A stretch of 22,703 bases of DNA, from positions 1-22,703 of the IMG/VR virus record IMGVR_UViG_3300034064_000394; one strand, written 5' to 3'. The notes under the pieces are model-generated. The model was given only the letters and a program-made list of their open reading frames with translations, was not told the DNA's origin and searched no databases. A program made the position numbers and the translations under genes. Source of the stretch: a virus. Shown in pieces: positions 1 through 11,721 of this stretch (position 1 is its first letter; every line of letters starts with the position of its first letter).

Positions 1-83
1 CATACATAGCCGTTTACCGCACCTCTGCGAAAGGTAACGTTAGCTAAAAATAGTACATCGGTTGCAAAGGGTTTATACGTCAT
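1..83 (-). CDS. Partial hypothetical protein (N-terminus only)
   Basis: An ATG on the minus strand (81-83) opens a frame that stays open to the window edge and gives 27 residues beginning MTYKPFATDVLFLANVTF. Its start overlaps the last 11 bases of the upstream connector-like gene, the same tight coupling used throughout this operon, which is the main reason to believe it. Too little is visible to name a family. Its place after the portal and connector-like genes makes another head-tail or structural protein plausible, but that is inference. Confidence 0.5.
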   Translation of the reverse strand, partial: MTYKPFATDVLFLANVTFRRGAVNGYV

Positions 84-660
84 GGCAATTGCAGCTTATT
101 CGGTTGCAATTTACACACTTATTGCGAGTATTTGAATTGCCACCAACGGGGCTTACTACTACGTTCTTTTTAGTTTTAGGGTTAGCCGGTGCATCGTCGC
201 CCCATAATGGGTAATCGGTAGAGTTATTACACAAAAACTCTATACATTCATTCCAATAGCTAATAGCCTGGTCTTTAGCGTTGGTTACTGCAAACTGTAA
301 AGTCTTAGTATCAACCCTTTCCGATACATCGTTATTGTTTTTAAAGACAATACCAAACCTTGTAACATTAATATTTTGGTTTTGCAAGAAACGAGCATAA
401 GCAAACATTACAATAACGGCTTTTAAGCCAGTAAACGTATAGGTGTTGTTATTGTAAACATAATCGCCACCGTCTAATAACAAAACGTTTTCGGTACTTG
501 CGGGATTGTTTACCACATCAACATAAAACTGATTACCCATTAAGGGTTTAAGGTCAAAGTTTTGCGCTTGTGTTATGTACGGTGTAAGCCTTTCGGTAAC
601 GTCTAAATTTCCCGTTAGTTCCCTGTATGGCTCAAAGTCGCTAAATGTTATTAGTGCCAT
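73..660 (-). CDS. Head-tail connector-like protein (DUF6712-like)
   Basis: A 195-residue protein whose N-terminal half (ITFSDFEPYRELTGNLDV, then a helix with AQNFDLKPLMG) resembles the small DUF6712-type proteins that lie beside portal or capsid genes in Bacteroidota phages and are thought to act as head-tail connectors. That assignment rests on recalled family resemblance. It overlaps the portal stop/start by one base, so the two are probably translationally coupled. The middle has a hydrophobic stretch around AVIVMFAYARFL, consistent with a helical bundle. The last 15 or so residues are unusual: four cysteines and a histidine in the pattern CxxCxxxxCxCH, which could bind zinc or form disulfides. 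Not seen here: any enzymatic motif. Confidence 0.55.
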   Translation of the reverse strand: MALITFSDFEPYRELTGNLDVTERLTPYITQAQNFDLKPLMGNQFYVDVVNNPASTENVLLLDGGDYVYNNNTYTFTGLKAVIVMFAYARFLQNQNINVTRFGIVFKNNNDVSERVDTKTLQFAVTNAKDQAISYWNECIEFLCNNSTDYPLWGDDAPANPKTKKNVVVSPVGGNSNTRNKCVNCNRISCNCHDV

Positions 661-1943
661 TATTCTATAATTTGAGTTCCGTTAACCATAGCTTCAGCAC
701 TTAGTTTGTCAACTCCAAAAACAACCTGTATTGTGTTAACCTTTTGTTGGGGTGTTAATACAGTATCAACTAAAATTGTAGTTAATGCTTGCACGCCACC
801 TACACCAATCGCAGCCGCTAAGTTTTCGCTATCTACGTTTTCTGCTGTTGCTGTTATTGGAATAATTGAGTAATCGTTTGTTGGGTTAATGTTGTAATAG
901 TAACGTGAAAACACTTTACGATACACCTCTTCAACAACTAACCTTTCGTCTTTAGTATTCTTGTTGTAATTGTCGGTAGCTTCTATAAACTCGCCGCTTG
1001 TGCCTAACTTGCCCTGTGTTTCTTTGCCTATTAAAATACTTGGTATGCCGTAGTTTTGACGTATGTTATCTTGCACCGATTGCTCTGTATATTCAAACAA
1101 CTTATCGGTATTCTGTATGTCAACCTTTAATAGTTTGGGGTCGGTAGCCTCTTCGGTACTTTCTACCATCATTATCTTACCTACATTATCAGAGCCTTGA
1201 AAACTTTGCAATGTATCTTGCATACCCGACCTTTCAGCTTCATCTTCAAACACACCCCTGTTAATATAGATGTGCGATGCCATAAAGTTAGTAGTTACAT
1301 CACGGTATTTCTTTAGTTTTATTTCACCGTCAGTAACACAATCCTCTAACACCGGGTCGGCTGTTGCTGTTGGGTATTCATGCCCATCGGCTGAATAATA
1401 TAAAATCTGACCTTTGTACTTATCCCAACCACCCGCAGCTAAAACCTCTTCTTGCACCCTATCAGAGTTAAAAAAGTTTATGTAATCTATGTTGTCTTTT
1501 TTAATTTGCTTGTTGCGCTTACGCCCCCAGTCATCATAAACAGCCACCGCATAAGGTATATAGCTATCCTTTTCTACCGCCAAACGGCAATGTTCAAAAG
1601 GTACTGAACTAACGCCTACTATCTCACCGTTGGCATTGTAATTAACGTGCAAAGCCAAGCCACGAAACATTGCTAAATCCTGTGTTGACCTGCGGAGTAA
1701 CATATCGGTAGTTTGCCCTAACTTGTTAACCTTGCTTTTGTAAAAGGTTTTGTCGGCAAAGCCTTGGCCGAAGATAAACTTTGAAAGAATATCGTTGCAC
1801 TTAAAAGACGTAGCACTACCCCGAATAATATCCATTACTCGCTGCGGGTAAGCGTTGTCAATATCGTAGCTAAGTATTCCCTCTGTTGGTATTCGTTTAA
1901 TACAAAGCCTATCCGATATATTTATAATAGACGTTCTTTGCAT
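660..1943 (-). CDS. Phage portal protein
   Basis: A 427-residue protein, the size expected for an HK97/SPP1-type portal. Portals form a twelve-subunit ring at one capsid vertex through which DNA is packaged and ejected. Supporting features are the N-terminal segment with SYDIDNAYPQRV, a basic/aromatic middle, and a C-terminal segment with NYGIPSILIG, then GEFIEATDNYN and a helix with KDERLVVEEVYRKVF. This last arrangement is typical of Bacteroidota phage portals, where the stem and clip helices precede the C-terminus. The start overlaps the preceding gene by one base. Its place is odd: portals normally follow the large terminase directly, yet here about 16 kb, including the tail block, lies between them. 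The role is fairly secure, although no single catalytic motif exists to prove it. Confidence 0.8.
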   Translation of the reverse strand: MQRTSIINISDRLCIKRIPTEGILSYDIDNAYPQRVMDIIRGSATSFKCNDILSKFIFGQGFADKTFYKSKVNKLGQTTDMLLRRSTQDLAMFRGLALHVNYNANGEIVGVSSVPFEHCRLAVEKDSYIPYAVAVYDDWGRKRNKQIKKDNIDYINFFNSDRVQEEVLAAGGWDKYKGQILYYSADGHEYPTATADPVLEDCVTDGEIKLKKYRDVTTNFMASHIYINRGVFEDEAERSGMQDTLQSFQGSDNVGKIMMVESTEEATDPKLLKVDIQNTDKLFEYTEQSVQDNIRQNYGIPSILIGKETQGKLGTSGEFIEATDNYNKNTKDERLVVEEVYRKVFSRYYYNINPTNDYSIIPITATAENVDSENLAAAIGVGGVQALTTILVDTVLTPQQKVNTIQVVFGVDKLSAEAMVNGTQIIE

Positions 1944-2410
1944 TACTTAGCTTTGCGCTTTTTAATGTGTTTAGTTACTTTTTCAATTGCTACTTCAGCA
2001 AAAACCTCGTTAACTACCTCTTCGGTAATAACTTCAGCTTTTACTTCTTTAGCCACCTTTTCAACCGGCACTTCTTTTAGTAAATCCTCGTTTATAGATT
2101 TAAATTTCTTTTCGTAAAATGCACGATTAGAAGTTAGCATATCAATAGCCACCGCTTCGGGTAGAAATGCTTCTGAATATACGCTACCTTTAAAGGTTAT
2201 CAGCGCACCGCTTTTTAAAATAAAGTTCTTAGTCATAACTTGTTCTTCTTTACCCAAAGATAAGTGATTTTTTAACTTAAAATACTCCTTATATAAACTA
2301 CCTGGGCAGGTGTTACAATTTACAGTTTTGCCAAAAGTAGTTTTATACAATGCGGCAAACTCTTTTTGAGCATCTGCATTGTACATTACTTGGTTAACGG
2401 TTAAATTCAT
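1943..2410 (-). CDS. Hypothetical protein with charged Val/Glu/Lys-rich C-terminal tail
   Basis: I do not recognise this 155-residue protein. The N-terminal 100 residues look globular and carry a short CNTCPG motif. From about residue 113 the composition shifts to V, E, A and K (VPVEKVAKEVKAEV and similar) and it ends in the strongly basic IKKRKAK. Such a tail is likely helical or disordered and could bind nucleic acid or an acidic partner. It lies between the structural protein and portal genes and overlaps the portal start by one base. It is the first gene after the intrinsic terminator at 2427-2453, so its expression, and that of the portal, probably depends on read-through. A structural or assembly role is inferred from position only. 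Confidence 0.6.
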   Translation of the reverse strand: MNLTVNQVMYNADAQKEFAALYKTTFGKTVNCNTCPGSLYKEYFKLKNHLSLGKEEQVMTKNFILKSGALITFKGSVYSEAFLPEAVAIDMLTSNRAFYEKKFKSINEDLLKEVPVEKVAKEVKAEVITEEVVNEVFAEVAIEKVTKHIKKRKAK

Positions 2411-2426
2411 AAGATTTTGTTATTAC

Positions 2427-2453
2427 AAAAAAGGGGCTTTTTATCGCCCCTTT
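2427..2453 (-). terminator. Intrinsic terminator between structural protein and portal genes
   Basis: On the minus strand an eight-base-pair stem AAAGGGGC/GCCCCTTT with an eight-base loop is followed directly by a run of six T, the last three of the stem's 3' arm's T residues being part of it. It sits in the 61-base gap between the 191-residue structural protein gene and the next gene, one of the largest gaps in the block. The form is that of a rho-independent terminator for minus-strand transcription. Because no promoter is evident in the 16 bases before the next ATG, partial read-through probably sets a lower level for portal and connector than for capsid. Confidence 0.8.
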
Positions 2454-2471
2454 CCTGTTAGTTAAACAATT

Positions 2472-3047
2472 CTACAATAAGGCTTCAATAAGTGCCAATG
2501 TAGTAGCGTAATCGGTATCAAATACGCTAAATTGTAAGTGAGGTTCTTTAGCAAGTTCACCGCTACCAAGTTGTAAAACATAAATACCGTCGTTTTCAAG
2601 AACGCTGCGTACCGATGTCAATACTTCTAAGCCGTTGGTGATGCCGTAGATTTCAAAGGCTGTATTTCCAGTAGCAGAACGGTTGTTGTTGCCTACTATT
2701 GCAACTAAGTTTCCGCTTTGTACCATTTTCTCAATTTGAGCCTTAGTTTCGGGGGTAATATCAAAAGCAGCAAAACCTACATTGTGTTGGTAGCTATCAA
2801 AATATTGACCTTTTACCAATTCCGTACCGGCTGTTATTGAGTTGTTACGTCCCTCTATTTTAAAGATTGTTTCGCCTGATGCTAACGATATACCATCAAC
2901 AATTTTATGTGGCAAGATACCTGCTGTATCGTAGGTAAATGATGCCCCATCTAAGTTGAAAAGGTAAAGAACGTCCGACGTTCCCCCTACTGGGGGATTG
3001 TCGCAGTCTATCAGTATGTTTGCGCTAATGCCACCGCATTGTGCCAT
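2472..3047 (-). CDS. Structural protein, candidate major tail (tube) protein
   Basis: A 191-residue protein with alternating beta-rich segments (VLYLFNLDG, ETIFKIEGRNN, NTAFEIYGITNGLEV, GIYVLQLGSGE). The short N-terminal MAQCGGISANILIDCDNP and the following LYLFN motif recall a family of presumed tail tube or structural proteins in Bacteroidota phages; this is resemblance, not proof. It directly follows the capsid gene by 19 bases and precedes a strong terminator, so it probably shares the high transcription of the capsid gene, which suits an abundant virion protein. No other gene in the window is an obvious major tail protein, which supports this choice by elimination. A capsid decoration protein is the main alternative. 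Confidence 0.5.
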   Translation of the reverse strand: MAQCGGISANILIDCDNPPVGGTSDVLYLFNLDGASFTYDTAGILPHKIVDGISLASGETIFKIEGRNNSITAGTELVKGQYFDSYQHNVGFAAFDITPETKAQIEKMVQSGNLVAIVGNNNRSATGNTAFEIYGITNGLEVLTSVRSVLENDGIYVLQLGSGELAKEPHLQFSVFDTDYATTLALIEALL

Positions 3048-3066
3048 AATTCTTAGTTTTTAAAAG

Positions 3067-4146
3067 TTAGTAAGCTAATTGTACCATGTAATCTTCAAGC
3101 ACCTTAGCATCAATGTTAAAGGCGAATTTAGCTACATATTTCTCTTCGTATTCAGCATAGAAAGCAGCTACTTCAGAAAGGTTACCAACCTCTTCAACAC
3201 CTAAGCCTAAGTTTTCGGTAGTTGTAAGAACGGCACGGTGAGGGCGGTAGTTGTTAGAACCGCTATCTTGGTAAAGGCTAATCATACGGTCAAAGAAGTT
3301 AACCGCAATTACCGGTATTCCGTTGTATGATAGCATGGTAAAACCACCCTCGATACGCTTGAAAGAACTATCAACACCTTGCATTTCTAACTCGTAAGCG
3401 TACTGGTCAAAAACCGACTGTGTTACAAGGTAAACAAGGTCAGAACGGTCACGCAAACGGAAGTCAGCACCTACTTTAAGTGAGTGAAGAGTGCCTGTTG
3501 CGATACGGTTTGTCAAGTCGGTAGAGTTGAAAGCCTGTAAAGCGTAAGTAGCTTGGCTATTTTTAGTGGTTAGGTTAGAAACCAAACGGGCTGCTGTTGC
3601 AGTACCCACGGCAAATAGCTGTTTCCAAAAACCATCAATCGGGTTGAAGTAGTCAACATCAATACCATCAGTAATATAACCCGCAGGGCTATCGTTATAG
3701 TTGGCAGCATCAGTATCACCAAACCAAGCAATACGCCAAGCGGCTTCTACTGCTGCATCGGTTAAACGCTCTTCAACAAAGTTTGCAAAATCAGTATCTA
3801 AGATATTGGTTTTGTTTACTCCGTTTTTAGTAGCCCATGCAAAGAAAGATGCTTCTAAGTCAGTCCAACAGTCTTCGATACGGGCTGCAATGTAAGCAGG
3901 AGTCCATACCTTTTCGCTAATATCAATAGTAGCGGTATCGGCTGTGGTTGAGCAGGTTGTTTTTTCTTTACCTAATAAACCAAGTTTACCAAGAAATACA
4001 ATTTGCTTGTTGGCTTTAATGCCGGTAAATATTTGGTGGAACTCGGTAATAGCTTGCTTTTGAAACAGGGCTTCAAAGATAGCTTCCGAAAGGGTTTGTA
4101 CTTCCCTACGGGTGAATGTGTAATTTGTTGGGTTTAAAATTGCCAT
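3067..4146 (-). CDS. Major capsid protein
   Basis: A 359-residue protein just downstream of the head maturation protease gene, the standard location. It begins MAILNPTNYTFTRREVQTLSEAIFEALF, a helical lead-in typical of Bacteroidota phage capsid proteins, and continues with mixed alpha/beta sequence containing RIEDCWTDLEASFFAW, an expected spine-helix region, and a C-terminal beta region with YNGIPVIAVNFFDRM and KYVAKFAFNIDAKV. Size and composition agree with an HK97-fold capsid subunit, which assembles into the icosahedral head and is usually processed by the upstream protease. No N-terminal delta domain of the HK97 kind is obvious, so scaffolding is probably supplied by the protease's C-terminal part. 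No Shine-Dalgarno sequence is seen; the six-base gap to the protease suggests coupled translation. Confidence 0.82.
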   Translation of the reverse strand: MAILNPTNYTFTRREVQTLSEAIFEALFQKQAITEFHQIFTGIKANKQIVFLGKLGLLGKEKTTCSTTADTATIDISEKVWTPAYIAARIEDCWTDLEASFFAWATKNGVNKTNILDTDFANFVEERLTDAAVEAAWRIAWFGDTDAANYNDSPAGYITDGIDVDYFNPIDGFWKQLFAVGTATAARLVSNLTTKNSQATYALQAFNSTDLTNRIATGTLHSLKVGADFRLRDRSDLVYLVTQSVFDQYAYELEMQGVDSSFKRIEGGFTMLSYNGIPVIAVNFFDRMISLYQDSGSNNYRPHRAVLTTTENLGLGVEEVGNLSEVAAFYAEYEEKYVAKFAFNIDAKVLEDYMVQLAY

Positions 4147-4152
4147 TTCGGG

Positions 4153-4719
4153 TTAAGAGTTAGATGTTTGTTTTTTTATTTTAACGTAATCGGCTTTGCG
4201 TTCTTTTGCGCTTTCGATACGGTTGGTATCTTCAGTCGTTTTAGCACGGTTAAGCACTTCTTTTTGGCGTGCCTTTGGCGTGTAGTCGCTTTGTACCTTA
4301 GCTTTTAAGGCTACAATTTCTGCGGCTTGCTCTTCAATAGTTGCGGTAGCTGTTTCTAAGGCGGTTGCAACTTCGGCTTCGTCAGATTGGTAAGCTGACA
4401 GTTGGGCTTCAAGGTCTGCAACTTTAGCTTGCATTTCAGCCATTGTGTATTCGCTTGGTGCGTACACTTCGGTAATTTTACCGCCCTCTGTAACGATACG
4501 GTAGCCCGATAAATCGCCAGTTAAAGCGTGTTCTGCGTTTTCAGGTACTTCGCCTGTGTTGTCAGAGCCTACATAAACCATATCACCTACCTTTGGGTAG
4601 CTATCTTCGGTTTCAATGTAAAGTTCCGTTCCGTTTTCTAAGGCAGAATGTAAAGCCTTTGGCTCGTCATTAATCAGAGCCTTTAGTTTGTCAAGTATTG
4701 ACCTTTTTTTTGTTTCCAT
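4153..4719 (-). CDS. Possible nested scaffold protein from internal start
   Basis: Within the protease gene and in the same frame, an ATG at 4717-4719 would yield a 188-residue protein METKKRSILDKLKALIND..., which is just the small beta domain, coiled coil and basic tail without the protease. It is preceded by the A/T-rich GTTGAAATAATA, the kind of leader used by real genes in this window, and it lies exactly at the domain border. Lambda C/Nu3 is the known precedent for a scaffold translated from within a protease gene. Nothing proves the start is used; it is offered as a candidate. Confidence 0.4.
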   Translation of the reverse strand: METKKRSILDKLKALINDEPKALHSALENGTELYIETEDSYPKVGDMVYVGSDNTGEVPENAEHALTGDLSGYRIVTEGGKITEVYAPSEYTMAEMQAKVADLEAQLSAYQSDEAEVATALETATATIEEQAAEIVALKAKVQSDYTPKARQKEVLNRAKTTEDTNRIESAKERKADYVKIKKQTSNS

Positions 4720-5298
4720 TATTATTTCAACTTTTCTTTTAGGTTGCAAATCAATTTTAGCATAAGCCTTAATCGGCTCGGCTATTGCGGTAATAAAACC
4801 AAGTTCTAAAGCCTTGCCAGGTGTTAGGGTTGTTTCAACCGCCATAAGCTGTTTAAGGCTATCGGCTGCTTGCCCTGTTTTAGCTGCATAGAAATCGGCT
4901 AACTTATTCTCGTTTTCGGTAAGCATTTGAGCTACCTCTGTAAACTTAGCAGCATCGCCACCCGCTTCAGTCCAGGGGTTATGAATAAAAAACTCGCTAT
5001 TCGGTGTCATTAAACGGGTTTCACCCGCTAAGGCTATAACAGTAGCTATGCTTGCACATAAGCCCTCTATAATAGTTTCAACTGGCTTGCCTAACGACTT
5101 AATGTAATCATGGATAGCAAAGCCCTCGCTAACGCTACCGCCCCGTGAATGTATGTGTACACGAACGCTGTCAAATTCTCCCGCATTATTCAACTGTTTG
5201 CGAATGCTATCTAATGAAACTACGCCAAACATATCAGCCATATCAGCCGCCACGTTGTCAACTTCACCATAAGCATATATTTCAGCTATTTTTGCCAT
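4153..5298 (-). CDS. ClpP-like head maturation protease with C-terminal scaffold-like region
   Basis: The ATG at 5296-5298 is preferred because the protein then begins MAKIAEIYAYGEV, the usual first strand of the family; an upstream ATG at 5349 would add 17 residues and run into the divergent gene. This gives 381 residues. The first 180 or so are a ClpP/crotonase-fold serine protease: RVHIHSRGGSVSEG oxyanion strand-loop, nucleophile Ser83 in LCASIAT and His106 in FFIHNPW. Such proteases cut scaffold and capsid during head maturation. Residues from about 194 resemble a separate scaffold: a basic helix, a small beta domain (ENGTELYIE...VGDMVYVG), and a long coiled coil (MAEMQAKVADLEAQL to about residue 335) with a Lys-rich end. 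Fusion of protease and scaffold is known from other phages. The gene precedes the capsid gene by six bases. Confidence 0.82.
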   Translation of the reverse strand: MAKIAEIYAYGEVDNVAADMADMFGVVSLDSIRKQLNNAGEFDSVRVHIHSRGGSVSEGFAIHDYIKSLGKPVETIIEGLCASIATVIALAGETRLMTPNSEFFIHNPWTEAGGDAAKFTEVAQMLTENENKLADFYAAKTGQAADSLKQLMAVETTLTPGKALELGFITAIAEPIKAYAKIDLQPKRKVEIIMETKKRSILDKLKALINDEPKALHSALENGTELYIETEDSYPKVGDMVYVGSDNTGEVPENAEHALTGDLSGYRIVTEGGKITEVYAPSEYTMAEMQAKVADLEAQLSAYQSDEAEVATALETATATIEEQAAEIVALKAKVQSDYTPKARQKEVLNRAKTTEDTNRIESAKERKADYVKIKKQTSNS

Positions 5299-5320
5299 TA
5301 GTACAAAATTGTTACCTTTG
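5291..5320 (+). promoter_or_regulatory. Bacteroidota-type promoter for the plus-strand gene
   Basis: TTTG at 5291-5294 and TACCTTTG at 5313-5320 are separated by 18 bases, a full match to the TTTG/TAnnTTTG pattern of Bacteroidota promoters. The ATG of the plus-strand gene follows 23 bases later after an A-rich leader. The element lies across the start region of the divergent protease gene, whose ATG is at 5296-5298, so the two may interfere. Confidence 0.65.
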
Positions 5321-5343
5321 GCTAAACTGTTTACTACAAAAAA

Positions 5344-5856
5344 ATGCAAGTAGATGTATTAGGATTAGGGGCAAGCCTAAAAGAATATAGGCCAACTGGT
5401 AACTTAACTATCGGGGTGAACGATATAGGGGCGTTCTACCCTGCGGACGTGGTTATTTGTGTTGACAACCTATATAGGTTTAAAGGCGAAAGAAAAAAAA
5501 CGCTATGTACGTATAAACCAAAGGTTGCATTTTGGTCGCATAGGCAAGAATTTAGGCAGTTTCAACCTAACTTTAAAGAATATGCATTAGGTGGTACTCA
5601 TAAGATATGGTCTTTAGACAAACCTAATACTGTTGTTTTTGGTTTTACCTCTGTTTATGCTGCGGTAAGTTTAGCCTATAATATATATAAGGCAAAAGAA
5701 ATAAATATTTACGGCTGCGACCTTGTAAACCACCCGCATTTGGGCGAAAAGCATAAGCTGAATAGCACCGTTAAACACTTAATAGAGTTGTTTTTGTATC
5801 TAAAAGAGAAAGGCGTAACTGTTAACCTTTATTGTGGTCTTGCTGACTTGATTTAA
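5344..5856 (+). CDS. DUF115/GT42-like putative glycosyltransferase (only plus-strand gene)
   Basis: A 170-residue protein with a Rossmann-like pattern: a first strand and glycine loop VLGLGASLKEY (residues 5-15), GVNDIGAFYPADVVICVD (24-41), and later TSVYAAVSLAYNI (102-114) leading to EINIYGCDL (119-127). This order of GxGxSL, xxN, S-helix and strand-xGxD recalls the DUF115/MptE-like family and GT42 sialyltransferases of the Cst-II kind, so transfer of a nucleotide-activated sugar is a reasonable guess; the exact donor is unknown. It is the only plus-strand gene. It has its own promoter (5291-5320) and a hairpin after the stop, and its last 35 bases overlap the converging methyltransferase gene. 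This self-contained layout is that of a moron, a cargo gene expressed independently of the late operon. Confidence 0.6.
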   Translation: MQVDVLGLGASLKEYRPTGNLTIGVNDIGAFYPADVVICVDNLYRFKGERKKTLCTYKPKVAFWSHRQEFRQFQPNFKEYALGGTHKIWSLDKPNTVVFGFTSVYAAVSLAYNIYKAKEINIYGCDLVNHPHLGEKHKLNSTVKHLIELFLYLKEKGVTVNLYCGLADLI

Positions 5857-6421
5857 ATACCATAATGGTATTTTTAAACCACCAAAGCGTAGCGGCATTT
5901 CTTAGCTTTTGGCTTGTTTCAACATCGTATTCGTACTCGCTAAACATTTTTATAACCTCTTGGTTAGGCAATTCATTTACATGACCATCGCCCCCTTGAC
6001 CGGGTATAGCCCAACTGATAACAATAATTTTAGGCTCGTAAACCTTAATGTTATTTACAAAGACGTTACATAATTCTTTTGGTATATGCTCTCCGACTTC
6101 TAAAGATAAAACGCATAGCCCATTATATGAACTTTCAACCGACTTATCAAAGTCAATTATTGATTGCGGCAAAGGCTCTGTTAAATCACGTACAAGACAA
6201 AACGGGTTATTTCTTGCTGTGCTAGGGTTACCGTCTATTCCATAAGCCAATGTATCTTTTTGATGTCTTAAAGCATAAACATACTTACCCTCTCCACAGC
6301 CTAAGTCAATAACTAAATTGCCTTTAAATAAATTGCCTAACGAATTAGCTAATTCACTATCAAACGCATGATGTTTATCAGTATCGTTACCCTGCCAAAA
6401 TCCCGTTTCTGCAATATTCAT
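5822..6421 (-). CDS. SAM-dependent methyltransferase (class I)
   Basis: A 199-residue protein with motif I NLVIDLGCGEGKY (residues 35-47), an acidic residue after the second strand in YGIDGNP (60-66), and a motif-IV-like region LCVLSLEVGEHIP. This is the Rossmann methyltransferase fold using S-adenosylmethionine. The opening TGFWQGNDTDKHHAFD followed by an LA helix is a recurring start among small methyltransferases linked to sugar clusters. The target is not evident. Between a glycosyltransferase-like gene (35-base overlap at its 5' end) and a converging DUF115-like gene, methylation of a sugar or glycan terminus is the natural guess; a DNA target is unlikely, as there is no NPPY or PCQ-type motif and no target recognition domain. 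Confidence 0.75.
   Translation of the reverse strand: MNIAETGFWQGNDTDKHHAFDSELANSLGNLFKGNLVIDLGCGEGKYVYALRHQKDTLAYGIDGNPSTARNNPFCLVRDLTEPLPQSIIDFDKSVESSYNGLCVLSLEVGEHIPKELCNVFVNNIKVYEPKIIVISWAIPGQGGDGHVNELPNQEVIKMFSEYEYDVETSQKLRNAATLWWFKNTIMVFKSSQQDHNKG
5855..5875 (+). terminator. Weak terminator-like hairpin after the plus-strand gene
   Basis: AAATACC (5855-5861) and GGTATTT (5867-5873) form a seven-base-pair stem around ATAAT, followed by further T residues so that five T run from 5871 to 5875. It starts within the stop codon of the plus-strand gene. The stem is A/T-rich with only two G-C pairs, so termination would be modest. On the minus strand it lies inside the 3' end of the methyltransferase gene and lacks a comparable T run. 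Confidence 0.45.
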
Positions 6422-7064
6422 ATATTTTATCTATTCGGTTTGTAACTTCTATATCAGTTCCGTAGTTGCGGCTATACCATGTATGCACGCAAAAAGGTTT
6501 ACCATTAAACAATAATTCCGTTGTTAGCCCGTCTCCCCATATCTTAGCTTCTAAGTTAAGCGGTTTGCCTTTGTCATGTAGGTAATAAAATAGACCTGTA
6601 AACGGTTCTTCGTTATCGTGGTTGCACGTTCCAATATTTAAAGGCTCTTTGTAACTTGTAATATCGTTAAAGGTGTATTTGTCAATAGCTACCCGCCCCT
6701 TTTTAACTATCAGCTTTTTGCATTTGGTAGCGTTAAAGATATTAAAGAACGGGTTTTGTACCGCCCATGACCTTGACCTACCCGAGTGAACTCCGCCATC
6801 AGGCATACCCGCATGGGTGTATTCGCCTTTTATAAAATAATCTATCAACTCACACAATACTATCCAATCAGTTATAAAGCAATCCTCATCAATATTTAGG
6901 ATATATGGTGTTTTAGCATGGTTAAACATATAATAGAGGTAGTCAACTGCTTCGGTAAAACCATCAAATCCAGTACACCTATATTTAGGTACGTCTTTAG
7001 GTATAAACTCGCACATACGTTCCCATAAAACAGGGTGTGCGCTTCGGGTGTAAACGGCTATCAT
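6387..7064 (-). CDS. Putative GT-A glycosyltransferase
   Basis: A 225-residue protein with a GT-A-like layout: an N-terminal strand MIAVYTRSAHP, a helix and then YILNIDEDCFIT (residues 54-65), in which DED (59-61) fits the metal-binding DxD motif that holds the nucleotide-sugar. A later NPFFNIFNATKC and the C-terminal FCVHTWYSRNYG, with a histidine that may complete metal binding, resemble phage and bacterial sugar-transfer proteins. I cannot assign a CAZy family or sugar. It overlaps the next upstream glycosyltransferase by four bases (ATGA) and the methyltransferase by 35, so all are probably co-translated. A more conservative reading is a GT-like hypothetical protein. Confidence 0.6.
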   Translation of the reverse strand: MIAVYTRSAHPVLWERMCEFIPKDVPKYRCTGFDGFTEAVDYLYYMFNHAKTPYILNIDEDCFITDWIVLCELIDYFIKGEYTHAGMPDGGVHSGRSRSWAVQNPFFNIFNATKCKKLIVKKGRVAIDKYTFNDITSYKEPLNIGTCNHDNEEPFTGLFYYLHDKGKPLNLEAKIWGDGLTTELLFNGKPFCVHTWYSRNYGTDIEVTNRIDKIYEYCRNGILAG

Positions 7065-8386
7065 AATTGTACCTTTATTAATTCGTAATCTTTATACTGT
7101 GTACGGCTTACCAATTTATATTGTAGGGTGTTTAGCCCGTCTTCGCTGCTAAGATACTGTTTTTCTACTGCCATTTGCAGCCTTTCGGTTACTTGTTTGT
7201 GGTTGCTCATATCCCTGCTGTGCGGTAAACTTTGAAACTTACACTCCCTACGTTCTATAAATAGGTTTTTGCAGCGTAAAAGCAACTCATCATCTTCACC
7301 GCCCCACCCCCAAAACTCGTTAGAGTAACCATTAATACTCCAAAACAAATGTTTGTCAAATATATTCACCCCGCCAAAGTAATCAGGGTATGGCATTCTA
7401 TTATTAAACTGACTTGCCTGTGTTGCTATATGGCAAGGGTTGGTTGAATACCTGTAATCGGCTGTTTGCGGTAGCATATCAACATCGTGAAATATAAAAT
7501 AGTCACAATCGTTTACAGCTAAAGCTGCCCCGATGTTTAATAGTTTAGCCCGGTTAAAGGGTTTGTTATCGGCTTGCCCAATAACCTTAACACAATAGTT
7601 TTTATACTCCTTAGCCTTTAGGTATTGCTTTAAATGGGGTATAAATTTATTGAGGTGTGTTTCCCTGGTGCGGTAAGGAATAATAAAACACGCCCTTTGC
7701 GGTTGCTCTTTTAGGTTTCTTGCTACGTGCGAATTATCTCCTATGTGCTTAACATATCCCTTGCCGTTAATTATTGCAGCAAAGTAACCCATTTCAAAAT
7801 ATAGCTTACTTAGTCTTAATTCTGTTGCCAACCCATGCTCACGGTTTTTACTTGCATAACTGCCTATTAACTGGTAATCATATAGCCTTTTTAAGCAAGG
7901 GTTAAAACTAAAGCCATGCCACCTATTTTGATAACCAGTCGTAACGTACTTAAACTTTACCCCGCTTGCCGATTGTATGCTTTTTTCAATGGGGTGTTGG
8001 TTGGTATCGTTTATAGCCCTTATCCAAACTTGTAAGATATGCCTACTGCGTTCTAATACCTTTTTGCTGTCTTCAATAAATCCCGACTTGTAAAACTGCC
8101 AATCCTCTTCACAATGAAAAATATATTTAGTTTTAACTAATCGGTAGCCAATATCAATACTTTCGGCTTGCCCTTTGTTTACATTATTGTTTACCCAAGT
8201 TATTAACGGGTATTTTGCTTGAAGTTCTTTGTTGCAGTCTTTTACCCCGCTATCCTCTACAATAATAAACGAGTGCAAAGGGTAGGTATTAAACTCAAAG
8301 AAACTTTCTAATGTCTTAGCTAACAGGCTTGGTCTATTGCACGATGTTAAAACTACCGTTACATCAGATTGATTGGTAAAAGTCAT
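7061..8386 (-). CDS. Two-domain glycosyltransferase: GT2-like plus beta-1,4-galactosyltransferase (GT7)-like
   Basis: This 441-residue protein carries two transferase domains. Residues 9 to about 225 are GT2-like: VTVVLTSCNRPSLLAKTL, an acidic FIIVEDSG, and CEEDW (92-96) at the metal-binding position. Residues from about 230 closely follow animal beta-1,4-galactosyltransferases: PYRTRETHL, FNRAKLLNIG (277-286), DVDMLP with the DxD at 301-303, PYPDYFGGV, INGYSNEFWGWGGEDDE (351-367) with the catalytic acidic pair, and a C-terminal HSRD (389-392) and DGLNTLQYKL. The His of HSRD is a known metal ligand; the other ligand, Met in the bovine and human enzymes, appears to be Ser here. The family moves galactose, or N-acetylated hexosamines, from UDP onto a terminal sugar. 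Two catalytic domains suggest addition of two sugars in turn, possibly a repeat polymer. Donor and acceptor are not determined. Confidence 0.85.
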   Translation of the reverse strand: MTFTNQSDVTVVLTSCNRPSLLAKTLESFFEFNTYPLHSFIIVEDSGVKDCNKELQAKYPLITWVNNNVNKGQAESIDIGYRLVKTKYIFHCEEDWQFYKSGFIEDSKKVLERSRHILQVWIRAINDTNQHPIEKSIQSASGVKFKYVTTGYQNRWHGFSFNPCLKRLYDYQLIGSYASKNREHGLATELRLSKLYFEMGYFAAIINGKGYVKHIGDNSHVARNLKEQPQRACFIIPYRTRETHLNKFIPHLKQYLKAKEYKNYCVKVIGQADNKPFNRAKLLNIGAALAVNDCDYFIFHDVDMLPQTADYRYSTNPCHIATQASQFNNRMPYPDYFGGVNIFDKHLFWSINGYSNEFWGWGGEDDELLLRCKNLFIERRECKFQSLPHSRDMSNHKQVTERLQMAVEKQYLSSEDGLNTLQYKLVSRTQYKDYELIKVQL

Positions 8387-8987
8387 ACGCTTCTTTTGTG
8401 CAATGTGTTTCTAAGAAATCAATATTTGGCACATACATATTTAATACTGTATGACCTTTGCCGCCTGTTTTACCTATCCCGTGTTTTATGCCAATAGCCA
8501 TAATATTAGTTGGGCTTACCGTTACCCCGTGCCACTTACTCCATATAAACAAGTCCGCAAAAACATAGTTGTTTGCCGGCATAGGATATTCAATAACATT
8601 CTTGCTAACCATACTGGTAAACATACTTGCCCTACCCTTATGGCTTGTAAACTTTAAGCCCTTAACTCCTAAATGATAATAATAGGTGTAATCAATACCA
8701 AGTAAATCGGGCTTATCATGTTGTAACCATTCCGCATACATATACTCTATGTAGTTGGGTTGGTAGTAATCGTCATCTTCCCAAAATAGTATGCAATCAG
8801 CCCCGCTATTTACAGCCTTTCGTATTCCGTACTTATACCTTTCGCTTATATCAACCTCATTACTCTTAGCAGAGTAATCAACCACAATAACCAAATCGGG
8901 CTGCTTGGTTTGGGCTGCTATTTGCTTTTTAGCAAACTCTAAAAACTGCGGTCTATCTCCTCTCGTTGGTATTACTACTGCTAACAT
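8364..8987 (-). CDS. Glycosyltransferase, GT-A fold (GT2-like)
   Basis: A 207-residue protein starting MLAVVIPTRGDRPQFLEF, the first beta strand and helix of family 2 glycosyltransferases, followed by LVIVVDYS and an acidic FWEDDDYYQPNYIE (residues 68-81). The DDD there fits the DxD motif for a divalent metal and nucleotide-sugar. The C-terminal half with KGHTVLNMYVP and FLETHC resembles phage-borne relatives and is short for a full GT2, so the acceptor part is small. It overlaps the GT2-GT7 gene by 23 bases and the upstream HTH gene by seven, placing it first in the sugar island. No membrane segment is seen, so it should act in the cytoplasm. Confidence 0.75.
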   Translation of the reverse strand: MLAVVIPTRGDRPQFLEFAKKQIAAQTKQPDLVIVVDYSAKSNEVDISERYKYGIRKAVNSGADCILFWEDDDYYQPNYIEYMYAEWLQHDKPDLLGIDYTYYYHLGVKGLKFTSHKGRASMFTSMVSKNVIEYPMPANNYVFADLFIWSKWHGVTVSPTNIMAIGIKHGIGKTGGKGHTVLNMYVPNIDFLETHCTKEAYDFYQSI

Positions 8988-9211
8988 TCTTGCCCCATTT
9001 TTTTAACAGCACGCCATACGGTTGTATCGTTTACATCGTACTTAGTAGCTACGTTATTTACTGCGGTTGTTATGCTGCAAGGCTTACACATTTCTTGCTT
9101 AACCTCTGCATACATTTCCGACTGTTTAATAACAAGAAAGGACATCGCCCCCGACTTTACCAATTTATCCATTAACTCCCTATTGTCGTTTATTAAATCG
9201 CCTACCCTCAT
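8981..9211 (-). CDS. Small helix-turn-helix protein
   Basis: A 76-residue protein. Residues about 46-75 (ITTAVNNVATKYDVNDTTVWRAVKKMG) have the pattern of a helix-turn-helix: a helix, a short turn at DVND, and a recognition helix. Before it lies a CKPC pair. Such small HTH proteins occur in phages as regulators or as terminase-like DNA-binding subunits. It overlaps the tape measure start region by four bases and the first island glycosyltransferase by seven, so it stands exactly between tail and sugar genes; a role in controlling the island is possible but not shown. Confidence 0.55.
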   Translation of the reverse strand: MRVGDLINDNRELMDKLVKSGAMSFLVIKQSEMYAEVKQEMCKPCSITTAVNNVATKYDVNDTTVWRAVKKMGQEC

Positions 9212-11721
9212 AAAGTTGCTACGGCTTGTACCTGGTTAACTTGACTTTGAACTGCGTTAATATCTACAACACTAACAACCGGGTTAGGCATTTTTGCAAA
9301 CATATCGGCTATCATGTTCATATCGTTGTTTACTGTTGGTGCAAATATAGCACCCCCATCGGCAAATTTAACACCGCCCCCCGCTTCATTTATTGCCGAA
9401 AGTATCGGTTTAAACATTGCCGTTGACCTTTTGTTAATAATTACCTCACCCCCCTCTGCTTCTATCATACCTCGTGGAGTTCCTATTTTAATACCCCCTT
9501 GTGCATGGCTGTTGCCTACTAACATTCCGTCGGCTGCTTTAATCATACCGCCTTTCTCAAAAGAGCCTATTACGGTAGCTTTAAATACTGCGAACGCTGC
9601 TTTAATAATACCCGTTAATAATGCCGCTTGTGCAATACCCGCAATACCACCCGTTGCTACACTTTGAGGACTTGCTAAACTTGCCGCAGTAGCTTCAGCA
9701 ATTGCAGCCGCTTGACGTGCTAAAACTACCTTTTCAATGGTATCAATAGTTATTGCCAATACTTGTTTAGAGAAACGCTTTAAATCAATTCCGCTTGCTG
9801 TAATACTTTCAGTAAAAGCCTTGTTGATTAGGTCGGCTTGTGCTGTAAATATATCAGTGTAAACTTTAGCGTTCTCTTCTAACTGTTTAGCTTCGGCATC
9901 AGATACAGCCAACCTATCGGCTGTGTATTTTTGAAACTCCTCAAAACTTTTAGCTTCGGCTTCTTGGTTTTTAAGAAGTTGCTCTTGGTTGGTAGTATCT
10001 TGGTTGGCAATTAACTCGGCATTAAGGTCTTTTTGAAATTGAGCCTCTTGGGTTAATATTAACCTTAGCTGATTTTGGTAGTTTGTGTTTAATGCCAGTA
10101 GGTCGGTTAGGTATTGGCTTTCTATCAATAGCCCCGCAGCCTTGCTATCTTGCAACAGCTTTAAGTCTTTAGCGTATTGCTCTGTTAGTATCTTGGTGCG
10201 TTGCTCGGCTGTATCACCTAACAGTTTATTCTCTAAATCGGCTAACGCTTTTAGTGCATCTTCTTTCGCCTTAGCTTCACGCTTGTAAAGCTCTATCCTT
10301 GCCCCTACATTATCAGCTTCAATATCCAAACGGTCTTGGTCTAACTTAATTAGTTCAAGGCTGTATTTAGCTTGTAGTTCAACATTCGTTTTGCTTTGAG
10401 CCATAAGCGTATTTAACCCTTTCTTTTGGTCTTCAATATCTTTTAGCTTTTGGGCGTTTAATTTAGTTTGTAAATTAAAAAGGACTAAGTCGCTTGCACC
10501 TTGCGCTGTTGCTAATTTTATTTGCCTTTCAATATCCCTTGCTCCACCGGCTGCTAAGGCACGCTTTTCGGCTTCTATTTTTACAAGGTCTTCATAGGCT
10601 GAAAACAGCAAGTCGGCTTGTTTTTTTTGCGTTTCTATGCTATCCGATACGTTTTCAATAATACCTAACGACTTCTTTTGCTCTTCTACCCACTTGGCAT
10701 AGTCAACACGCCCAAAACCAATAGCTTCATTAAAATCAGCAAGGGCATTGGTAACACCTTTAAAGTTGAATATCAATTCTCCTAACAATATAACAATAGC
10801 CCCTATGCCAGTAGTTGCCAAAGCTATTTTAAACAAACGTAAAGCCCCTGTTGAAGTACCTACTACCGTTGCGTATAATGCTTGGGCTGCTGCTGCTGCC
10901 TGTGTACGTGCTGTTGTTAAAGCAACCATAGCCGCACTATCTTTTTGCAGAGCATTAGCTACCTGTTGCACCCCGTTGGCAATAGCCATTGTAGCCTGTA
11001 TCTTTACTAAGGTCTTTTGTAGGTCTTCTCCCTCTTCACCAAACAAAGCCGCAGCCCCTTGTGCCGCAGCAAAGCCACCCGCAATACCACTAACAGCACC
11101 CGCAAACCCATCAATTAAACCCGTATCGCTTGATAGAGCCTTAACTGTGTTGTTTACATCGGAAATGCTGTCTTTTATTTGCCCCGCTTTTTGGCTTAAC
11201 TCTTGGAACTCCGCACTATTGCCCTTGCCTTGTACCTCTAATTGTTGTAACTGTTGGGTAAGTTCCCGCAATTGTACCTTTAAAGGCTTAACGGCTTCGG
11301 AGTAGTTACCTACGTTACGTGCATTTTGCCCATAGCTGCTTTCAACCTCTTTTAGTTTTGAGTTAATACGTGCTAACTCCGCAATTTGGTCTTTGCCCTC
11401 TTGAGTATTCTCCCGTTGTTCGGCACTTAACTTGTTAACGGCTGCTTGTGCTACTACATATTGAGCCTTTAATTGTTCTAAGCTACCCTCTGCGGCTTTG
11501 CTTGCTTTAATGCTTGCTTGAAGTACACGGTCTTGTTCTCGGTAGCTCTTGTTCAACAAACGTAATTCAGCTTCGGTTGCCCTTACTTGTTTTTCGCTTG
11601 CTTTCTCATCACCACGCATTTTGACTAATGCCGTTGATACCTTTTTAATTTGGTCTTCGGTATCTTTTAACGCATTGTTTTGTACGTCAATTTCAATTAT
11701 TATCTTTTCAGTAGTTGCCAT
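9208..11721 (-). CDS. Tape measure protein
   Basis: An 837-residue protein. Residues 15-190 and 360-640 are long, charged, heptad-like helices rich in K, E, A, L and Q. Hydrophobic segments lie at about 202-228 (GFAGAVSGIAGGFAAAQGAA), 300-320 (LATTGIGAIVILLGELIFNF) and 686-718. The C-terminal part has the typical glycine-rich GGMIKAADGMLVGNSHAQGG and EGGEVIINKRS (756-766), a signature seen in many siphophage tape measures. These proteins fill the tail tube, set its length and enter the host envelope on DNA ejection. By the usual rule of about 1.5 angstrom per residue the tail would be near 125 nm, which is an estimate only. It overlaps the HTH gene and the upstream tail gene by a few bases. 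Its separation from the chaperone gene by several others is unusual. Confidence 0.88.
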   Translation of the reverse strand: MATTEKIIIEIDVQNNALKDTEDQIKKVSTALVKMRGDEKASEKQVRATEAELRLLNKSYREQDRVLQASIKASKAAEGSLEQLKAQYVVAQAAVNKLSAEQRENTQEGKDQIAELARINSKLKEVESSYGQNARNVGNYSEAVKPLKVQLRELTQQLQQLEVQGKGNSAEFQELSQKAGQIKDSISDVNNTVKALSSDTGLIDGFAGAVSGIAGGFAAAQGAAALFGEEGEDLQKTLVKIQATMAIANGVQQVANALQKDSAAMVALTTARTQAAAAAQALYATVVGTSTGALRLFKIALATTGIGAIVILLGELIFNFKGVTNALADFNEAIGFGRVDYAKWVEEQKKSLGIIENVSDSIETQKKQADLLFSAYEDLVKIEAEKRALAAGGARDIERQIKLATAQGASDLVLFNLQTKLNAQKLKDIEDQKKGLNTLMAQSKTNVELQAKYSLELIKLDQDRLDIEADNVGARIELYKREAKAKEDALKALADLENKLLGDTAEQRTKILTEQYAKDLKLLQDSKAAGLLIESQYLTDLLALNTNYQNQLRLILTQEAQFQKDLNAELIANQDTTNQEQLLKNQEAEAKSFEEFQKYTADRLAVSDAEAKQLEENAKVYTDIFTAQADLINKAFTESITASGIDLKRFSKQVLAITIDTIEKVVLARQAAAIAEATAASLASPQSVATGGIAGIAQAALLTGIIKAAFAVFKATVIGSFEKGGMIKAADGMLVGNSHAQGGIKIGTPRGMIEAEGGEVIINKRSTAMFKPILSAINEAGGGVKFADGGAIFAPTVNNDMNMIADMFAKMPNPVVSVVDINAVQSQVNQVQAVATL

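Follow-up and report, generated by a model that had tools for sequence, protein, structure and literature searches.

The 22,703-nucleotide stretch of viral DNA analysed here (IMG/VR record IMGVR_UViG_3300034064_000394, positions 1 to 22,703; hereafter the window) carries on its minus strand a head maturation protease gene that probably specifies two proteins with a shared stop codon: a protease-scaffold fusion and a free scaffold protein, the latter initiated separately at an internal in-frame ATG (4717-4719). Based on comparative sequence analysis, the probability of this reading is estimated at about 0.86. Internal initiation is deduced from the conservation of the ATG, the codon bias of its leader, lowered synonymous divergence around it, Shine-Dalgarno (SD) motifs in relatives, and the interchange of ATG and GTG, and these comparisons support the ATG as a real, selected translation start.

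Under this model, initiation at the first ATG would yield a 41.5-kDa protease-scaffold, and separate initiation at the internal ATG a 20.7-kDa scaffold free of the protease; the latter start would be of the SD-less, A-rich and weakly structured type used by Bacteroidota ribosomes. As to product amounts, scaffold function, co-assembly and clearance, we infer that the free scaffold would form the abundant prohead core, that a few fused copies would bring the protease into the prohead through the shared scaffold part, and that the protease would later clear the scaffold. The features of the gene are as follows.

4153-5298, minus strand: full open reading frame (ORF), ClpP-type head maturation protease fused to a scaffold module; 381 amino acids (aa) from the ATG (MAKIAEIYAYGE), stop codon 4153-4155
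4777-5181, minus strand: Pfam CLP_protease stretch (PF00574), residues 40-174
4720-4776, minus strand: linker, residues 175-193; length varies among relatives, predicted local distance difference test (pLDDT) score below 50 from residue 188
4720-4743, minus strand: A/T-rich leader of the nested frame, positions -24 to -1, with A at -3, -6 and -13
4717-4719, minus strand: internal start codon ATG, codon 194 of the full ORF
4153-4719, minus strand: nested ORF, proposed free scaffold protein, 188 aa, 20.7 kDa
4462-4659, minus strand: small beta domain of six strands, nested residues 21-86 (AlphaFold 2 model)
4297-4443, minus strand: long acidic helix, probable coiled coil, nested residues 93-141 (AlphaFold 2 model), isoelectric point (pI) 4.1
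4159-4227, minus strand: C-terminal helix, nested residues 165-187 (AlphaFold 2 model), in a basic tail (142-188, pI 9.8)

The internal start and its coordinates had been proposed in an earlier sequence-only reading of the window, and the coordinates prove correct, with 188 codons plus a stop in the frame of the protease ORF and with its stop codon. By profile search, the full ORF is a ClpP-type (S14) phage head maturation protease, matching PF00574 (E 1.7e-28, 100.2 bits against a cut-off of 20.2) and phrog_94 (head maturation protease; E 8.5e-53). S83 and H106, which we take to be catalytic residues of the ClpP-type protease, are invariant in aligned relatives (in a set of 12 sequences and also in one of 32). 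The AlphaFold 2 model of the full ORF (pLDDT 84.8) has a well-modelled protease, a stretch below 50 at residues 188-200, and the tail after it; with CLP_protease ending at residue 174 and M194 lying inside the low-confidence stretch, the ATG was rightly placed at the domain border. When the 188 aa are modelled separately (pLDDT 86.3), a helix (2-16), six strands within 21-86, and helices at 93-141 and 165-187 are predicted, which agrees with the beta domain, coiled coil and basic tail described earlier.

Conservation and codon choice at the proposed internal start

Relatives were gathered from viral contigs, genomes and phage records, mostly metagenomic contigs, and yielded 150 ORFs. Left out of these were 18 host ClpP ORFs, 45 protease-capsid fusions, five ORFs classed as other (L098, L099, L104, L128 and L129) and five that were partial or frameshifted (L030, L135, L142, L143 and L144). 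L143 was considered as a split-gene relative; its break lies within the ClpP domain before the GF motif and is read as a frameshift or sequencing error, not as a split at the border. The 77 remaining ORFs, reduced to 43 (window included) by clustering at 80% identity, are termed Bacteroidota-type, a label of our own: named members infect Elizabethkingia or Bacteroides, or lie in a Flavobacteriales genome, and the host assignment of the window would follow from these relatives.

An in-frame ATG was found in the linker after the ClpP domain in all 43 counted ORFs, 16-48 aa beyond the GF motif for the border ATGs chosen, giving nested products of 136-210 aa. The border codon persists at 23-39% protein identity, and the residue that follows the methionine varies, with 13 Ser, 11 Asn, 5 Thr and 5 Lys among the 43. 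Manually assigned border offsets for L009 and L027 entered the synonymous, A-position and pairwise tests and the alignment.

Start-like context was scored with a position weight matrix (PWM) trained on 160 putative starts of other genes, these being first ATGs of long ORFs and not verified starts. The best-scoring internal in-frame ATG falls in the linker in 39 of 43 ORFs, against 8.1 expected, and border ATGs differ strongly in score from other in-frame ATGs (p = 1e-24). In the window, the 24-nucleotide leader cctaaaagaaaagttgaaataata is A/T at 19 of 24 positions, as the earlier description of an A/T-rich leader had it, and its score of 1.5 is the best among the internal in-frame ATGs of the ORF (next -2.7). 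When synonymous codons were randomised with the protein held fixed, the leader PWM z-score was positive in 42 of 43 ORFs (mean 1.56), compared with a mean of -0.14 at 344 control positions in the same genes; the A count exceeded the synonymous null in 37 of 43 leaders, and structure was lower than that null in 35 of 43 (p = 5e-5).

Divergence points the same way. Among 16 disjoint pairs, synonymous differences amounted to 13/65 at codons -8 to -1 and 10/49 at codons +1 to +5, against 1213/2681 at distant codons (near-versus-far contrast, p = 4e-8, from which codons -15 to -9, with 28/94, were excluded). The earlier proposal of an internal start is supported by the ATG conserved in the counted ORFs, the start-like codon choice and a halving of synonymous change.

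In Flavobacterium johnsoniae, A at -3, -6, -12 and -13 is reported as a positive determinant of translation (PMC6847099). Among the border ATGs, A occupies these positions in 30, 35, 33 and 25 of 43 cases, respectively, compared with 95, 91, 134 and 113 of 350 other in-frame ATGs. The features of a Bacteroidota SD-less start are present at these sites, and the window has A at -3, -6 and -13, with G at -12. An A8 run also opens the nested frame (4701-4719, ATGGAAACAAAAAAAAGG); it was considered as a slippage site, and a conserved slippery site is unsupported, since the relative L003 reads ATGACCACACAA.

Shine-Dalgarno-type relatives and protease-capsid fusions

Among 244 loci of an SD-type set, 242 gave an ORF, 126 of these with a closed tail of at least 110 aa, and 52 were retained after clustering at 70%. 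AGGAG or GGAGG followed by an in-frame ATG or GTG was found in the 65-codon linker region in 21 of 52, compared with 5 of 52 for a 115-codon ClpP region and 3 of 52 for a 65-codon distal region. SD duplex energies of -8 or below occurred in 23 linkers, whereas synonymous shuffles predicted 11.9 (standard deviation 2.5); the controls lacked this excess (ClpP region, 21 versus 27.6; distal region, 4 versus 4.5). SD-like motifs at the border precede ATG in L129 (AAGGAGG) and in the Vibrio phages XM1 and Rostov 7 (AAGGGGA), and GTG in Gordonia phage Adora (AAGGAGG) and Mycobacterium phage Jung (GAGGAG), in the latter at a predicted start at codon 278 of the protease. Adora and Jung, which have an annotated scaffold gene, had been expected to lack a nested start; this expectation was wrong, as the strongest in-frame SD site is at the border in both (rank 1 of 16 and 1 of 17, respectively). 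Short tails with no such border site were found in the ClpP-type genes of Listeria phage B025, Lactobacillus phage Sha1 and Vibrio phage Strym.

With a looser motif, 29 SD sites were listed (17 GTG and 12 ATG), some of which may be chance occurrences. Similar border motifs begin with either residue (VATLKEG, MATLQEA and MGTLKDD; VAFSDEQ and MQFSDEQ), a likeness judged by position and eye rather than by alignment, and this interchange of Val and Met suggests that a start codon, not a methionine, is what has been kept. Pairwise synonymous differences in the SD set were 41/189 near the border and 976/3372 far from it, a comparison biased towards conservation because SD strength had served to pick the border.

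Single ORFs of about 650-770 aa that comprise protease, scaffold and capsid protein form a separate group (L048-L093 without L061, together with phages mEp460 and F10). An MPxx[FILM][KR] motif is present in 45 of 47 such fusions, with GAGGA- or AGGAG-like runs before the motif ATG, and the amino acids that encode the SD vary (KE, ED, EE, QE, GD). The border ATG, which ranks 1 to 3 among in-frame ATGs by SD, may serve in these phages (e.g., F10 and mEp460) as an internal start for the capsid protein; in F10 it is codon 220 and opens the sequence MPEALKTL. The statistics are weak: the per-sequence synonymous SD test gave P values of 0.027 to 0.70 (10 clusters, 9 scored), and pairwise synonymous differences of 46/92 near and 1854/2797 far come from 22 pairs that re-compare few lineages.

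In the two actinophages, the annotated scaffold genes, Adora gp5 (L161:2595-3005) and Jung gp5 (L162:2668-3033), match the cement protein families PF22758 and PF09956 above cut-off, and also phrog_673, which is labelled head scaffolding protein; their scaffolding label possibly reflects the spread of a misannotation.

The proposed scaffold module, gene layout and alternative explanations

A scaffold role for the nested product is suggested by where it lies, by its predicted architecture, by structural matches to phage proteins of comparable length, and by analogy. The model of the nested product matches viral proteins of similar size (183-206 aa for the six best, at E 1.8e-6 to 1.5e-5), and the same search also brought up XkdF-type records and the record of a 374-aa Clp protease. 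A FERM domain match (VIA-align, best Z 5.2, span 19-138) was dismissed as a common arrangement. A beta-domain profile (E 1e-3) detected 73 ORFs among the loci compared, 69 of which also match the ClpP profile, and no stand-alone scaffold gene was among them. The other four are L143 and L144, which are broken or cut by a contig end, and two phage ORFs with other N-terminal domains:

L408:2955-3971: Nonlabens phage P12024L fusion ORF, scaffold module behind Peptidase_S78_2 (XkdF/S78 type), border ATG at codon 177
L409:179-1228: Bacteroides phage BC679P2 fusion ORF, scaffold module behind an N-terminal domain that matches no protease in Pfam or PHROG, ATG at codon 161 with an A-rich leader

Phage-record searches with the nested parts of the window and of L003 gave no matches, and a search with the nested part of L020 gave nine records, all Bacteroides phages.

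The gene downstream of the protease probably encodes the major capsid protein, a role assigned from its position:

3067-4146, minus strand: next gene, probable major capsid protein; matches phrog_38780 (unknown function, E 1.5e-43) and, weakly, phrog_9953 (major head protein, E 0.015)

The head genes of the window (73-5298) run protease, capsid, two unknown genes, portal, an order shared with phages BS-TP3 and TCUEAP1, whereas the other phages compared have portal-protease-capsid. Several ORFs at 5344-8987, one of them on the plus strand (5344-5856), resemble glycosyltransferases or methyltransferases by eye; they are flanked by the head genes on one side and, on the other, by a long ORF that looks like a coiled-coil tape measure (9208-11721, by eye). 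The sequence-only reading had stated that no other scaffold gene is visible and that the protease region must supply scaffolding; the former is unproven, since the head-module genes 2472-3047 and 1943-2410 (the latter 155 aa) are without assigned function in Pfam and PHROG profile searches, and the latter is worded more strongly than the evidence allows. These two genes favour the view that the nested product is real without being the scaffold, acting for example as a protease regulator or portal chaperone, with the scaffold encoded elsewhere, such as by 1943-2410 or a part of the capsid protein. We regard this as unlikely, given the long acidic helix, the basic C-terminal part, the position just before the probable capsid gene, and the occurrence of the module behind different protease types. 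It is rather more doubtful that only the fused protein is made, its tail scaffolding in cis (as in P2 gpO), and that the linker methionine and A/T-richness reflect a flexible Asn/Lys/Thr/Ser linker. Protease and tail are joined without a break in the 43 ORFs counted, a single coding sequence is annotated at this gene in the TCUEAP1, BS-TP3 and BC679P2 records, and the linker is Asn-, Lys-, Gln- and Thr-rich by eye; such a linker would leave unexplained the start-like codon choice seen with the protein fixed, the lowered synonymous change, and the SD-type relatives that carry AGGAG or GGAGG there, with similar sites reading ATG in some phages and GTG in others.

Two further explanations concern how the start is, or was, used. 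If the free scaffold came from a transcript of its own, started at an internal promoter, translation would still begin at the same codon, and the codon-level evidence is as compatible with this as with initiation on the long mRNA; a promoter pattern of the Bacteroidetes type (TTG, 17-23 nucleotides, TANNTTTG) was found within 250 nucleotides upstream in 1 of 43 relatives, the window not being that one, and we consider such a transcript quite unlikely. That the ATG is a fossil, left unused when two genes fused, would agree with the existence of similarly sized viral proteins that match the nested product in structure, and is made very improbable by the codon-choice constraint, the lowered synonymous change, and the persistence of the codon at 23-39% protein identity.

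Several observations weigh against an internally initiated scaffold. The border sites as a group score below the training starts (p = 0.006), with the window leader (1.5) below both the border-site median (3.4, 43 sites) and the training-start median (5.4). An equal or better internal ATG lies elsewhere in 4 of 43 ORFs (L027, L033, L039 and L105), and no linker methionine is visible by eye in three of the ClpP ORFs excluded from the count (L099, L104 and L128). In the SD set, the AGGAG/GGAGG linker site was not found in 31 of 52 scanned regions, and Vibrio phage XM1 has an ATG inside the ClpP part with a stronger SD score than its border ATG. With regard to function, the structural matches, which were judged on the models alone, reach TM-scores of only about 0.3, a Foldseek search of the Protein Data Bank gave nothing at E <= 0.001 (best E 0.22), and Phage_scaffold (PF06810) was matched weakly by 4 of 32 members (E <= 0.01, best 6.1e-05), the window protein not among them. 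As a separate observation, L105, which came from a Bacteroidota-phylum genome search, has a poor A-rich score and carries AGGAG 12-16 nucleotides before its border ATG.

A wider reading, for which we see even odds, is that a nested scaffold with an internal start is the general design of tailed phages whose protease, of whatever fold (Clp, XkdF/S78, Mu-I-like or S49), bears a scaffold tail. The start signal would be fitted to the host (A-rich in Bacteroidota; SD with ATG or GTG elsewhere), the capsid protein of Pseudomonas-type single ORFs would be made from the same internal site, and the scaffolding protein of at least two actinophages would be a cement protein, with the true scaffold hidden in the protease gene. 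In phages without an annotated scaffold, or with a cement-like bearer of the name, the scaffold may hide inside the protease gene. Such a start would explain how scaffold could outnumber protease without a frameshift, and it looks like an internal start whose signal has been switched between SD-less and SD-dependent translation.

Comparison with known nested protease-scaffold systems

Nested protease/scaffold genes are already known as a kind, in lambda C/Nu3 and in the Mu-like genes of KS10. In lambda (NC_001416), C spans 4418-5737 and nu3 spans 5132-5737, so the parallel drawn in the sequence-only reading holds for the same-frame nesting and shared stop. Both systems have an N-terminal protease, a C-terminal scaffold (putative in the window) and an internal start, and the window shares with the lambda kind a conserved start signal at the border. 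They differ in the protease family (S49 in lambda, Clp/S14 in the window), in the beta domain that precedes the long helix in the window, and in the A-rich, SD-less start of the window. The SD scan was checked on lambda C (region 4300-6200): codon 309 (MTKETQST) came out best of 32 in-frame starts, and codon 239, at which nu3 is annotated to begin, shared second place at -6.4; a shorter Nu3 has reportedly been proposed.

The Mu-like protease/scaffold genes (KS10 gp28/gp29, PF10123) belong to the same nested kind and differ from the window in their translation signals. PF10123 (Mu-like prophage I protein) was not matched by the window protein at E 0.1, and residues 254-400 of the Gordonia Adora protein match it above cut-off, the internal GTG being codon 257. 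Herpesvirus UL26/UL26.5 likewise pairs a protease-scaffold fusion with a separate same-frame scaffold, and differs from the window in that UL26.5 has its own transcript and the protease fold is unrelated. The Pseudomonas MD8/F10-type genes are closer in protease type, having a ClpP-type protease and, among the members compared, ATG-CC at a similar border behind a GAGGA, AGGAG or purine run; they differ in carrying the capsid protein within the same ORF. The MD8 paper proposes that protease, scaffold and capsid are all encoded by a single gene (PMC8508860).

Among the best-ranked open-access papers listed, no title or abstract opening describes a scaffold start nested in the protease gene of ClpP-type or Bacteroidota phages. 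What appears to be new is an SD-less start in ClpP/S14 and S78 contexts, the conservation of that start across Bacteroidota-type phages, and a putative second product that is unmarked in the records compared (TCUEAP1, BS-TP3 and BC679P2).
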